Origin: Gemmatimonas sp.
GTDB taxonomy: Bacteria; Gemmatimonadota; Gemmatimonadetes; Gemmatimonadales; Gemmatimonadaceae
DNA length: 64,000 nt
Assembly: GCF_027531815.1 (NCBI RefSeq)
Contig: NZ_JAPZSK010000002.1
Location: 496,001-560,000, forward strand
Reading direction: 5' to 3'
The notes beneath the pieces are model-generated. The model did no database searches. It had not been told where the DNA came from and saw nothing but the letters and a program-made list of their open reading frames with translations. Both the position numbers and the translations under genes were made by a program. This document shows positions 12,732 to 20,345 of this stretch, piece after piece (within the stretch, counting starts at the first letter, position 1; every line of letters starts with the position of its first letter).

Positions 12732-15197
12732 ATGGCCACCACCACGCCTCCTTCCGCATCGCCGGGCGATGCCGGCCGCGCACCCACCGTGCGCGAGTTG
12801 TACGACCGCATGAGCTACGGGCCGGCGCCCGAAGGCGACGCGCCGGTGCGTAGCTGGATTGCCCAGCACGGCGGGCGCTTTCAGCACTACATCGGTGGCC
12901 AGTGGCACGCCGGCACGTCCACGTTCGAGGTGTTCGAACCGGCCACCGGGGCGCCGCTGGCGCAGGTGGCGCAGGGTACCGCCGCCGACGTGGATGCCGC
13001 CGTGGCGGCGGCTCGTGCGGCGCTGCCGGCGTGGCAGGCGCTCGATGATCATGCGCGCGCCCGCTGGCTGTACGCGCTGGCGCGCGGCATCCAGAAGCAC
13101 GCGCGGCATTTCGCGGTGCTCGAAACGCTCGACAATGGCAAGCCCATTCGCGAGACGCGCGATATCGACGTCCCGCTGGTGGCCAGGCATTTCTACCACC
13201 ATGCCGGCTGGGCGCAACTGCTCTCCACCGAGTTCGCCGGCTACCACGCATACGGGGTGGTCGGTCAGGTGATCCCGTGGAACTTCCCGCTGCTCATGCT
13301 GGCGTGGAAGGTGGCGCCCGCGCTTGCGGCCGGAAACACCGTCGTGCTCAAGCCGGCCGAGTACACGCCGCTCACCGCGCTGCGCTTCGCGGAACTGGTA
13401 CACGAGATCGGCCTTCCGCCGGGCGTGTTCAACCTCGTGACCGGCGATGGGAGCACCGGGGCCGCCATCGTGGCGCACGACGGGGTGGACAAGATCGCCT
13501 TTACCGGCAGCACCGAAGTGGGGCGCGCCATTCGCCTCGCCACGGCCGGCAGCGGCAAGGGACTGTCGCTCGAACTCGGAGGCAAAAGCCCGTTCATCGT
13601 CTTCGAGGACGCCGATCTCGATAGCGTGGTCGAAGGCGTCGTTGATGCGATCTGGTTCAACCAGGGGCAGGTGTGCTGTGCCGGCTCGCGGCTGCTCGTC
13701 CAGGAAGGCGTAGCCGATCGTCTGCACGCCAAGCTGCGCGAACGCATGGAGCGGCTGCGCGTGGGCTCTCCGCTCGACAAGGCCGTGGACATGGGCGCCA
13801 TCGTGGCGCCGGTGCAGCTCGAGCGCATTCGTGCCCTCTGTCAGCAGGGGATCGACGAGGGCGCCACCTGCTGGCAGCCCTCCTGGCCGACACCCACCGA
13901 CGGCTGGTTTCATCCGCCCACGTTGTTCACCGACGTGGCCCCCAGCGCCACGATCGCGCAGGTGGAGATTTTCGGTCCCGTGCTGGTGAGCATGACGTTC
14001 CGGACCCCCGACGAGGCCGTGGCACTGGCCAACAACACCCCCTTCGGGCTGGCCGCGAGCGTGTGGAGCGAAAACATCAATCTCGCCCTCGATGTGGCGC
14101 CCAAGCTGGCCTGCGGCGTGGTCTGGATCAACAGCACCAATCTCTTCGATGCCGCGGCAGGATTTGGCGGGTACCGCGAGTCCGGCTTCGGTCGTGAGGG
14201 TGGACGGGAAGGGATGTGGGAGTATCTCAAGGCGGTACGGGCGCATGAGGTCGCGCCGCGCCCCGTCATGGATGCCCCCCTGTCCACGCGCGGCGGCGAG
14301 GACGACGAGGCCCGTGCGGGGCACGACGCCGATCGGGAGGGTGACGCGCTTCCCCCCATCGACCGCACCCCGAAGCTGTTCATCGGCGGCAAGCAGGCGC
14401 GCCCCGATTCGGGGTATTCGCTGCCGGTGCGCGCGCTCAACGGCCGCGTTGTGGGCGAAGTGGGCGAGGGCAACCGCAAGGACATCCGCAACGCCGTCGA
14501 GGCCGCCCACGCGGCGTCGGGGTGGGCGAGGCTCACCGGCCATCAGCGGGCGCAAATTCTCTACTACATCGCCGAAAACCTGTCGGCGCGTGGCGACGAG
14601 TTCGCGCGGCGCATCGTGGCCATGACCGGCGATCCACTCGCGGCCGGCGTGAGCGAGGTGGAGGCGGCGGTGTCGCGGCTCTTCACCTACGCGGCCTGGG
14701 CCGACAAGCACGATGGGGCCGTGCACGATGTGCCGCTGCGCGGCGTGGCGCTGGCCATGCACGAACCCCTCGGCGTGGTCGGCGTGGCCTGCCCCGACCC
14801 GTATCCGCTGCTGGGGCTCGTCTCGCTTATCGCACCCCTCATGGCCACCGGAAACCGGGTCGTCGCCATTCCGTCCCCCCGCTTCCCTCTGGCGGCGGTG
14901 GACCTCTCCAGCGTCCTCGAGAGCTCCGACGTGCCTGGCGGCACCGTAAACATTGTTACGGGTGACCGGGAGTCGCTCGTCCGTACATTGGCATCCCATG
15001 ACGATGTGGCTGCCGTCTGGTATTTTGGATTGCAGTCGGGAGCGGCCGAGGTCGAGCGCGCATCGGCCGCCAATCTCAAGCGCACCTGGACCGAATGGAC
15101 GGGCCGGGAATGGCTGGATCCGCGTTCAGGAGAGGGACGGGACTTCCTGCGGCGCGCGGTACAGGTCAAGAACATCTGGATCCCCTATGGCGAATGA
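12732..15197 (+). CDS. Two-domain aldehyde dehydrogenase, ALDH16-like
   Basis: The 821-residue protein holds two ALDH modules. The first (about residues 45-510) has an intact active site: IPWNFP with Asn184, LELGGKSP with Glu281, and FNQGQVCCAGS with catalytic Cys315. The second (about 545-820) repeats the ALDH start (KLFIGGKQ) and Rossmann features but has no GQxC cysteine motif, as known for ALDH16 family tails. A single-domain ALDH is about 480-500 residues. It has an AGGAG ribosome-binding site before ATG 12732, ten bases after deoC, and its stop overlaps the peptidase start (ATGA). It probably oxidises acetaldehyde released by the aldolase; that substrate is an inference from gene order. 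Confidence 0.88.
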   Translation: MATTTPPSASPGDAGRAPTVRELYDRMSYGPAPEGDAPVRSWIAQHGGRFQHYIGGQWHAGTSTFEVFEPATGAPLAQVAQGTAADVDAAVAAARAALPAWQALDDHARARWLYALARGIQKHARHFAVLETLDNGKPIRETRDIDVPLVARHFYHHAGWAQLLSTEFAGYHAYGVVGQVIPWNFPLLMLAWKVAPALAAGNTVVLKPAEYTPLTALRFAELVHEIGLPPGVFNLVTGDGSTGAAIVAHDGVDKIAFTGSTEVGRAIRLATAGSGKGLSLELGGKSPFIVFEDADLDSVVEGVVDAIWFNQGQVCCAGSRLLVQEGVADRLHAKLRERMERLRVGSPLDKAVDMGAIVAPVQLERIRALCQQGIDEGATCWQPSWPTPTDGWFHPPTLFTDVAPSATIAQVEIFGPVLVSMTFRTPDEAVALANNTPFGLAASVWSENINLALDVAPKLACGVVWINSTNLFDAAAGFGGYRESGFGREGGREGMWEYLKAVRAHEVAPRPVMDAPLSTRGGEDDEARAGHDADREGDALPPIDRTPKLFIGGKQARPDSGYSLPVRALNGRVVGEVGEGNRKDIRNAVEAAHAASGWARLTGHQRAQILYYIAENLSARGDEFARRIVAMTGDPLAAGVSEVEAAVSRLFTYAAWADKHDGAVHDVPLRGVALAMHEPLGVVGVACPDPYPLLGLVSLIAPLMATGNRVVAIPSPRFPLAAVDLSSVLESSDVPGGTVNIVTGDRESLVRTLASHDDVAAVWYFGLQSGAAEVERASAANLKRTWTEWTGREWLDPRSGEGRDFLRRAVQVKNIWIPYGE

Positions 15198-17900: not shown

Positions 17901-17934
17901 ACTGGGCGGGTGAGCCACGGCTCATCCGCCCAGT
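17901..17934. terminator. Long bidirectional hairpin between convergent genes
   Basis: ACTGGGCGGGTGAGCC (17901-17916) pairs with GGCTCATCCGCCCAGT (17919-17934) with one wobble, leaving a two-base loop. It overlaps the stop codon of the minus-strand fusion gene and follows the plus-strand gene ending at 17845. There is no clear T-run on either side. Confidence 0.6.
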
Positions 17935-20294
17935 ATGCGTCCCGCCATGGCCACGCCGCTCAGCCAGGCCCGTTCCACATCGCTCGCTGCCTGCGGGAAC
18001 GCCATCGCAAAATCGCCGCACGCCCCCACGCTCTGCGCCGCACTCCAGAGGCAGGGGCTGTCCACCCCCTGTTCCGTGCGGGCGTAGCGCCAGCGATGGC
18101 TGGCCGCGTGCAGCACCGTGCCCGCGATTTCCAGCTGTGCGCGCAGCAGCGGGGCGACCTCGGCACAGATCTCCTCGGCGGGGCGCTCGAGATGCGCCCG
18201 ACTCCAGTCGGCGCCGGACTGGGCCACCCATGCATCCGCGGTCGGACGCCCCGGCAGCGCCGGCTGCCAGATGCACCGCGCCACCCGCGCATCGTTCAGG
18301 CGCAGCTCGCCATGCCGCAACTGCTCGGTGAGGCGCACCGGCGGCGGCGCATCGAAGACCACCATCGTGCTCCAGCACGGGGCCATACGCACCTGTTGCA
18401 GGGGGGCCAAGTCGGCGGGCGCGTCGGTGACCAGCAGCGCTGCCGCCTGCGGCGCGGGTATCGCCAGCACCAGCACGTCGGCGAGGTGCGCCTGCCCCCG
18501 CTGGTCGTGCACGTGCCACTGCGACCCCTCGCGCTGCAGCCGTTGCACCTGCACGCCGGTCTGTACGGGCAGATCGGCGGCCAGATGTTTGGGCCAGGTG
18601 GACATGGCACCACGTCCGGCGTGCGCGTCCTGCAGGGCGGTCAGGTACCCGTCGTGTTCCCACGACTCCACGAGGCGCCGCGTGCGCGCATCGCCGAAGT
18701 GCATGAGCGGCGCGCCGTGATCGAAGCGCCAGTCCCCCTCACGCCGCGTGCTCAGCCGTCCTCCCACGCCGCGCCCCTTCTCCAACACGGTCACGGTGAA
18801 TCCGTGGTCGGCCAGGGTGCGAGCGCACGCCAGCCCCGACACGCCGGCCCCCACCACCAGCACCGACGGCGCCGACGACCATGCCGGCCGCTGCACCCGG
18901 CGCCGATACGCGTTCAGGTCGAGTCGCTTGCGGTGCTCGCCGGTGGGGCGCGGGCGCACCGTGCCCAGCACGCGCACAGGCGGCGTGAAGGGACGGTCGA
19001 ACTGGCCCAGACACCACAGCAACCCACCGTACGAGGCCGGGTCGCGACCGTCCAGTGCATAGCGGTGGTTGAGATCCACCAGCCGCTCGAGCGCCTGCTC
19101 GGCGTTTTCCGACCACAGGGGCAGCGCCTTGCCCCAGGTCATGCGCACGTTGTTGTGCAATTCGCCGTGCCGCACCAGCGACTGCTGCGTGGCGTCCCAC
19201 AGGTCGTCACCCGTGCGGGCCCGCGCCAGACGCTCCCACGACAGCACGTCGCGATGATCGCGTTCGTGCGTGGCCAGCGTGTCCCGTGCCCACGCCGGAA
19301 TGCCCTCGATGGTGGTGGGGGCGGCATGCCAATAGCAGAACGCGTACGCCAGCTCGCGCCACACCAGCAGTTCGTCCAGATACTTCTCGGGGCCGTCACC
19401 CGCCATGGCGGCGCATTCCCGCGCCACGCGCAGCGCCGACACCATGCCGTAGTGAAAGTACGCGGACATGCGGCTCACGCCGTCGATCGTGGCGTCGTTC
19501 CGCTTGGCCGCATAGCGCGCCAAACGCCCACTGTGCTTGAATGCCTCCCAGCGCGCATACCCGGCGCGTGACCCGCCGCGGGTGTGCGGGACCGGTCCCA
19601 CGCCGTGATCGATCTCGCACTGGGCCACCAGAGCCGGAATGTCCGCCGAGGCGAGCCGTACAGGCGCAAACGGCAATGCCGACGGCACGAAGGCTGGGTG
19701 TACCGGGGTCACCTCCGGCCACGCCCGCTGCAGCCGGTCCCGGCGAATCGCCGCGGTATCATCACGGAACGCAAAGGCCCGCGTGTGCGCCTTCTCCACC
19801 AGCGGCATCGGCACCACACAGGCGGTGTCCACACTCCACACCGGGCAGGGCGCCTGGTCGGCGAGGCCGTCGGTGAGCCAGTCCAGTGGCGGCACCGGCA
19901 TCGTTTCCGTGATCACGATGCACGCGCGTTCCGCAAGCAGCCTGAGCGCGGGCTGGCGATGCCCCGGCCGCTCCAGATGAAAGGCGTACCCGATGCCGCG
20001 CACGGCACATTCCGCTTCCACATCGCGGGCCCCTTCCAGAATGAAGGTGTGATGGCGATCGGAGGCGTACGGGTAGCGCTCGCTGAGCGCGTGATAGATG
20101 AACACGGGGCGCCCCAGCCGCTCACCGGCGAGCAGCGCCACATCCAGCGCCGGATTCTCGTGCGCACGCACCGCGGTGCGCATCCAGTACAGGACGAACT
20201 CGCCGTGCGTCGCGGCGGAGCGAGCGGCCGAGTGCGAGGTGATGCGTTCGGCGAGATGGTCGGGTAACGATTCGGGTCGGAGCACACTGAACAA
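17922..20294 (-). CDS. Class II-type DNA photolyase fused to a renalase-like FAD oxidoreductase
   Basis: The 790-residue protein joins two flavoprotein modules. Residues about 33-170 form the photolyase N-terminal alpha/beta domain. Residues about 240-465 form the FAD/DNA-binding domain with class II landmarks WRELAYAFCYW (312-322), DDLWDATQQ, RMTWGKALPLW and LDGRDPASYGG (414-424). Trp366, Trp387 and Trp394 match the spacing (21 and 7) of the class II electron-transfer tryptophans. After a short linker, residues about 478-790 have dinucleotide-binding VVGAGVSGLACA, EKGRGVGGRLSTRR, and a C-terminal GDFAMAFPQAASDVERAWLSG, typical of renalase-like amine-oxidase-fold proteins. The start may be TTG 20294 or the GTG three codons later. 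The first half predicts light-driven pyrimidine-dimer repair; the role of the second half is unknown. Confidence 0.88.
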   Translation of the reverse strand: MFSVLRPESLPDHLAERITSHSAARSAATHGEFVLYWMRTAVRAHENPALDVALLAGERLGRPVFIYHALSERYPYASDRHHTFILEGARDVEAECAVRGIGYAFHLERPGHRQPALRLLAERACIVITETMPVPPLDWLTDGLADQAPCPVWSVDTACVVPMPLVEKAHTRAFAFRDDTAAIRRDRLQRAWPEVTPVHPAFVPSALPFAPVRLASADIPALVAQCEIDHGVGPVPHTRGGSRAGYARWEAFKHSGRLARYAAKRNDATIDGVSRMSAYFHYGMVSALRVARECAAMAGDGPEKYLDELLVWRELAYAFCYWHAAPTTIEGIPAWARDTLATHERDHRDVLSWERLARARTGDDLWDATQQSLVRHGELHNNVRMTWGKALPLWSENAEQALERLVDLNHRYALDGRDPASYGGLLWCLGQFDRPFTPPVRVLGTVRPRPTGEHRKRLDLNAYRRRVQRPAWSSAPSVLVVGAGVSGLACARTLADHGFTVTVLEKGRGVGGRLSTRREGDWRFDHGAPLMHFGDARTRRLVESWEHDGYLTALQDAHAGRGAMSTWPKHLAADLPVQTGVQVQRLQREGSQWHVHDQRGQAHLADVLVLAIPAPQAAALLVTDAPADLAPLQQVRMAPCWSTMVVFDAPPPVRLTEQLRHGELRLNDARVARCIWQPALPGRPTADAWVAQSGADWSRAHLERPAEEICAEVAPLLRAQLEIAGTVLHAASHRWRYARTEQGVDSPCLWSAAQSVGACGDFAMAFPQAASDVERAWLSGVAMAGRILGG

Positions 20295-20345
20295 CGCGCG
20301 CCGACCCGATGCCGTGCCCGAGAAATGAGGGCGATGCTCGCGGCG

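Follow-up and report, generated by a model that had tools for sequence, protein, structure and literature searches.

A photolyase–renalase gene fusion shared by at least five phyla

Why should a DNA photolyase and a renalase-like flavoprotein be joined in one polypeptide chain, and do the two halves act on each other or side by side? Renalase is a flavin enzyme that recycles damaged forms of NADH. The question is raised by a single gene in the window, i.e. the whole 64,000-nucleotide stretch of Gemmatimonas sp. DNA analyzed here (contig NZ_JAPZSK010000002.1, positions 496,001 to 560,000). An earlier note on this DNA had described the gene as a 790-residue open reading frame, without giving its strand; the frame is borne out and lies on the minus strand (Table 1). 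The TTG start of this frame is not conserved among close relatives (L037 and L040), whereas a GTG three codons 3′ of the annotated TTG is, and this conservation indicates that the protein probably has 787 residues. The predicted start overlaps an inverted repeat conserved genus-wide, the arms of which carry a two-sided change in one relative (TCAGG..CCTGA in L035) and which gives an RNA fold z of −2.8. It could terminate the upstream gene, act as an operator or form a hairpin at the start site. A genome-wide distribution was rejected, with one exact copy only and 3-mismatch hits barely above the control.

Table 1. Features of the photolyase–renalase fusion gene (positions in the window; residues counted from the TTG start)
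Feature	Position	Strand	Remarks
Photolyase–renalase fusion gene	17922..20294	-	790 codons counted from TTG, or 787 aa with the conserved GTG (20285) as start
Inverted repeat/hairpin TCGGGTCGGcGCGCG-N8-TGTGCtCCGACCCGA	20272..20309	-	Overlaps the predicted fusion-gene start; conserved genus-wide
Class II photolyase module	18891..20294	-	Residues 1-468; TIGR00591 and 4cdn matches
Trp366 codon	19197..19199	-	Middle of the triad (Trp360 in MmCPDII); no exception among 44 fusions
Trp387 codon	19134..19136	-	Proximal to FAD (Trp381 in MmCPDII); no exception among 44 fusions
Trp394 codon	19113..19115	-	MmCPDII Trp388, terminal Trp; ≥90% conserved in fusions
Short linker	18870..18890	-	About residues 469-475; confident in the model (10-residue block means 91 and 88)
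Renalase-fold FAD module	17925..18869	-	Residues 476-790; 4zcc by sequence and structure
Dinucleotide-binding motif GAGVSGLACA	18822..18851	-	Residues 482-491; retained
Altered motif FDHGAPLMHFGDAR	18684..18725	-	Residues 524-537; FDHGAQYFTARDxR in canonical renalases
Deletion site, about 20-25 residues	18630..18635	-	Falls between residues 554 and 555; canonical renalases, fused or stand-alone, have the segment
Altered C-terminal motif GACGDFAMAFPQAASDVERAWLSG	17955..18026	-	Residues 757-780; replaces GACGDWCxGxRVEGAFLSG

The fusion is present at full length in about 55 loci, closed genomes included, which belong to Gemmatimonadota, Planctomycetota, Pseudomonadota, Thermodesulfobacteriota and Myxococcota. 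Many of these loci come from metagenome-assembled genomes (MAGs) with uncertain labels (one labelled Kuenenia, L045, agrees with a genome from the window's genus). Unbroken full-length frames occur in at least 17 other members of the window's genus, two of which are single-contig genomes (G028 and G029), and the fusion is also present in other genera of the window's family and class. Among the genomes compared, the closest named relative is a Gemmatimonas MAG, with 87% identity, and the Planctomycetota carriers include the isolates K23_9, Rhodopirellula sallentina and Stieleria tagensis. The joining of photolyase and renalase on one chain is thus an architecture conserved far beyond chance. 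Three long renalase-bearing frames (G132, G133 and G289) were rejected as further fusions, Pfam giving the flavoprotein only; the frame in G289 overlaps a neighboring DPRP frame. We found no paper in the open-access library searched that joins photolyase with renalase or COG3380.

This distribution also settles whether sequencing or assembly has merged two separate genes, a concern raised earlier for the region near position 18850. The same open frame recurs across independent assemblies, closed genomes among them (about 55 loci in all), and it is open across the genus, G028 and G029 included, so that a frameshift is excluded. Nothing in the window favors an artifact, to which we assign virtually no chance; the only such error that we met is the reverse case, in the single-contig assembly G108, where pieces of the fusion lie at two distant places (L181 and L174). 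We rejected this case as a gene fission since a run of N splits the fusion, which identifies a scaffold error.

In a tree of 91 photolyases, all the fused ones fall on one side of a branch with an SH-aLRT of 100 and a length of 0.59. With full support for this single clade of fused photolyases, the simplest reading of the tree is that the fusion probably arose once, and the scattering of phyla inside the clade suggests horizontal transfer between them. The fusion is ancient and is now distributed over at least five phyla.

The photolyase half looks functional

The assignment of the first half to the class II photolyases, made earlier from motifs, was confirmed by sequence and structure. TIGR00591, the class II model, matches residues 19-466 over positions 11-452 of its 453 (E 5e-84), with a score of 283 bits that falls below the model's own curated cut-off of 550, and the class II photolyase of M. 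mazei (MmCPDII) matches residues 32-463 (E 4e-52). We compared known structures with an AlphaFold model of the window protein, built on 44 fusion sequences (mean pLDDT 93.8, pTM 0.93). MmCPDII (4cdn) superimposes on residues 6-468 with a Z-score of 45.3 (rmsd 2.1, 449 residues aligned), against about 31 for class I photolyases.

Residues R265, N266, E308, W312, M385, N409 and W427 of the window protein align with R256, N257, E301, W305, M379, N403 and W421 of MmCPDII, which we take to be lesion-pocket and flavin residues. In the alignment of the 44 fusions, the lesion-pocket equivalents E308, W312, N409 and W427 are invariant, and R265, N266 and M385 are at least 90% conserved. The three tryptophans to which the earlier note had ascribed the class II electron-transfer spacing indeed align with the MmCPDII triad, W381 being proximal to FAD, W360 in the middle and W388 terminal (PMC5885780). 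With both the triad and the lesion-pocket residues kept, the photolyase half looks functional. Note that the genome to which the window belongs also carries a stand-alone class II photolyase, 39% identical to the fused one, and, at another site than the fusion, a DPRP-family gene.

The known photolyase closest to this half is MmCPDII (2xry, 4cdn), which it resembles in fold, tryptophan triad, Asn403 equivalent and lesion pocket. It differs in sequence (27-28% identity), in the replacement of Tyr345 and Tyr380 by L351 and T386, and in its C-terminal renalase module, which MmCPDII lacks; the fused photolyases form a clade apart from MmCPDII, across the long branch described above.

The renalase half keeps its fold but has lost signature motifs in the window's genus

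The second half had been described as a complete renalase-like FAD oxidoreductase, which holds for its fold. Pseudomonas renalase (4zcc) matches residues 478-788 when the full protein is the query (E 6e-24) and the module taken alone with an E-value of 3.5e-25; it superimposes on residues 476-790 of the model with a Z-score of 39.0 (rmsd 1.7, 303 of 328 residues aligned, 28% identity). The GAGVSGLACA motif reported at residue 482 is retained. "Complete" nevertheless overstates the case because renalase signature residues are missing, together with a segment of about 20 residues.

In its canonical form the fused module has FDHGAQYFTxRD, a stretch of some 25 residues ahead of the PGM motif, ARNxxKPGR and GDWCxGxRVEG. 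GAQYFTxRD, ARNxxKPGR and GDWCxGxRVEG are absent or altered in the window protein and in all 20 copies from its genus that we checked, whereas the canonical motifs are kept in other genera of the same family (L023, L126 and L132) and in most planctomycete and proteobacterial fusions. The fused renalase of the planctomycete K23_9, for instance, matches 4zcc with an E-value of 7e-64 and a Z-score of 46.6 over all 328 residues, at 37% identity. The Pseudomonas renalases (4zcc, 4zcd, 5krq; 3kkj) thus share with the window module the fold, GxGxxG, GGR and HRW; the latter sits behind a photolyase and is without GAQYFT, ARNxxKPGR, GDWCxGxRVEG and some 20 residues. From conservation and knowledge of the family, the lost motifs would line the renalase active site, and with these signature residues gone the second half has, in the window's genus, probably ceased to work as an ordinary renalase.

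The module has not been released from selection. In the window's genus it retains GxGxxG, HRWRYA and AWLSG as well as conserved residues of its own, and pairwise dN/dS ranges from 0.11 to 0.26, against 0.05-0.19 for the photolyase half (simple Nei–Gojobori estimates, with high dS in several pairs). These values indicate that the renalase half is still constrained, though less than the photolyase half.

The two halves are separable

One genome of the window's genus (G021:C53, locus L024, listed with L114) has the same flanking genes but lacks the renalase half cleanly, leaving an intact photolyase of 481 codons that is 72% identical. In a member of the Myxococcales (L078), the renalase half is shortened and has lost its dinucleotide motif while the photolyase is intact. 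Some members of the window's genus have a stand-alone class II photolyase only, which makes the fusion dispensable. Fused renalases are interspersed among stand-alone ones in a renalase tree, where well-supported branches force at least six changes between the two states. Set against the single photolyase clade, these changes, the loss in L024 and the decay in L078 show that the halves can be separated. Taken together with the motif loss, these cases of loss and decay lead us to conclude that the renalase half is, as far as comparison of sequences tells, an accessory. The pTM of 0.92-0.93 across two fusion models suggests that the domains are fixed relative to each other, and the halves could thus be physically coupled.

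Candidate functions of the fusion protein

The fusion had been taken to imply direct cooperation, the second module supplying reduced flavin or passing electrons from reduced nicotinamide to the FAD of the photolyase, which would then be active without prior photoreduction. The presence of two flavoproteins in a single chain, with a short and confidently modeled linker and the high pTM, speaks for such an electron supply, as do the descent of the fused photolyases from one fusion and the rarity with which the module is lost. On the other hand, the photolyase has kept its own photoreduction chain with an intact tryptophan triad, it persists in L024 and L078 where the module is lost or decayed, fused renalases are mixed with stand-alone ones in the tree, and the module of the window's genus is without canonical motifs. 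Moreover, human renalase, the characterized type, oxidizes 1,2- and 1,6-NAD(P)H and reportedly has no activity toward 1,4-NAD(P)H (PMC7660482). The triad, the separability and this substrate range all make a dark electron supply to the photolyase less likely; we regard it as improbable, and direct cooperation in this sense is left unsupported. It is very doubtful, too, that in canonical fusions the renalase half passes the electrons of light-damaged NAD(P)H isomers to the photolyase FAD within a rigid two-flavin protein; if true, photochemical waste would power DNA photorepair. Within the window's genus, the second half might instead be a catalytically dead relic or a scaffold for folding, stability or DNA contact, as the alteration of all three signature regions and the deletion of about 20 residues in all genus copies checked, the faster evolution of this half and the one genus member that does without it would lead one to expect. 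Its dN/dS of 0.11-0.26, its retained GxGxxG, HRWRYA and AWLSG, its high-confidence fold and its genus-specific conserved residues are as compatible with a changed function as with a scaffold, and we find this relic or scaffold role possible but rather unlikely.

The reading that we put forward, and give about an even chance, is that of a two-domain light-stress repair flavoprotein whose renalase half, in its canonical form, mends NAD(P)H isomers and has been altered in the window's genus. The photolyase half would repair cyclobutane pyrimidine dimers with light and photoreduce its own FAD through W394-W366-W387. In the canonical fusions of Planctomycetes, Proteobacteria and other Gemmatimonadaceae genera, the renalase half would oxidize inhibitory 1,2- and 1,6-NAD(P)H to NAD(P)+, the isomers that nonspecific photochemical reduction of NAD(P)+ yields (PMC7660482). 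One protein would then deal with two classes of light damage, to DNA and to a cofactor, with no electron transfer between its halves. Within the window's genus, the renalase half has probably changed its substrate or is mainly a structural or FAD-binding appendage. Its ancestral form was most likely not an electron donor but an oxidase for metabolite repair, coupled in one protein to DNA photorepair. A linked repair step, also named among the earlier proposals, thus remains the best-supported type of explanation, within which we infer the function itself.

The fusion ties an enzyme of damaged nicotinamides to a DNA photolyase in at least five phyla, and makes the role of bacterial renalases testable: are NAD(P)H isomers an injury that light causes under physiological conditions? 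A natural series, with the module canonical, altered or lost, is added by the window's genus for asking what the second domain contributes.

Gene neighborhoods and related clusters

The two families had been said to sit often near each other, which is true of some stand-alone renalases: among those on plasmids, one in Asticcacaulis lies near a PF03441 photolyase-domain protein and one in Burkholderia near DPRP and a photolyase. Within the phylum, none of the stand-alone renalase loci has a class II photolyase inside the flanks examined, and other stand-alone renalases have no light-stress context in their neighborhoods. Plasmid-borne stand-alone renalases also adjoin folE, DUF3429, SDR, MerR and ECF sigma/ChrR genes, and the light-stress neighborhoods of several stand-alone renalases speak for the repair reading given above.

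Six fusion genes (L050, L053, L060, L079, L085 and L176), none of them in the window's genus, have DPRP no more than about 500 bp away. We do not take this adjacency as strong proof of coupling, since one locus (L109) among 17 with a stand-alone class II photolyase also has DPRP, directly adjacent or overlapping, which makes the link with the fusion weak.

Comparable groupings, likened here whatever the photolyase class, are the phrB clusters of Pseudomonas, in which photolyase genes stand together with folE, SDR and flavin oxidoreductase genes, all of them separate and not fused, and which are light-induced or under an oxidative-stress sigma factor (PMC9758184, PMC5507510). The identity of the phrB-cluster amine oxidase (PSPTO_1118 / RSP_1091) as a renalase is putative only.

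Elsewhere in the window, an open reading frame of 821 residues on the plus strand (12732-15197) apparently contains two aldehyde-dehydrogenase-like regions, an arrangement that, judged by eye, is reminiscent of ALDH16.
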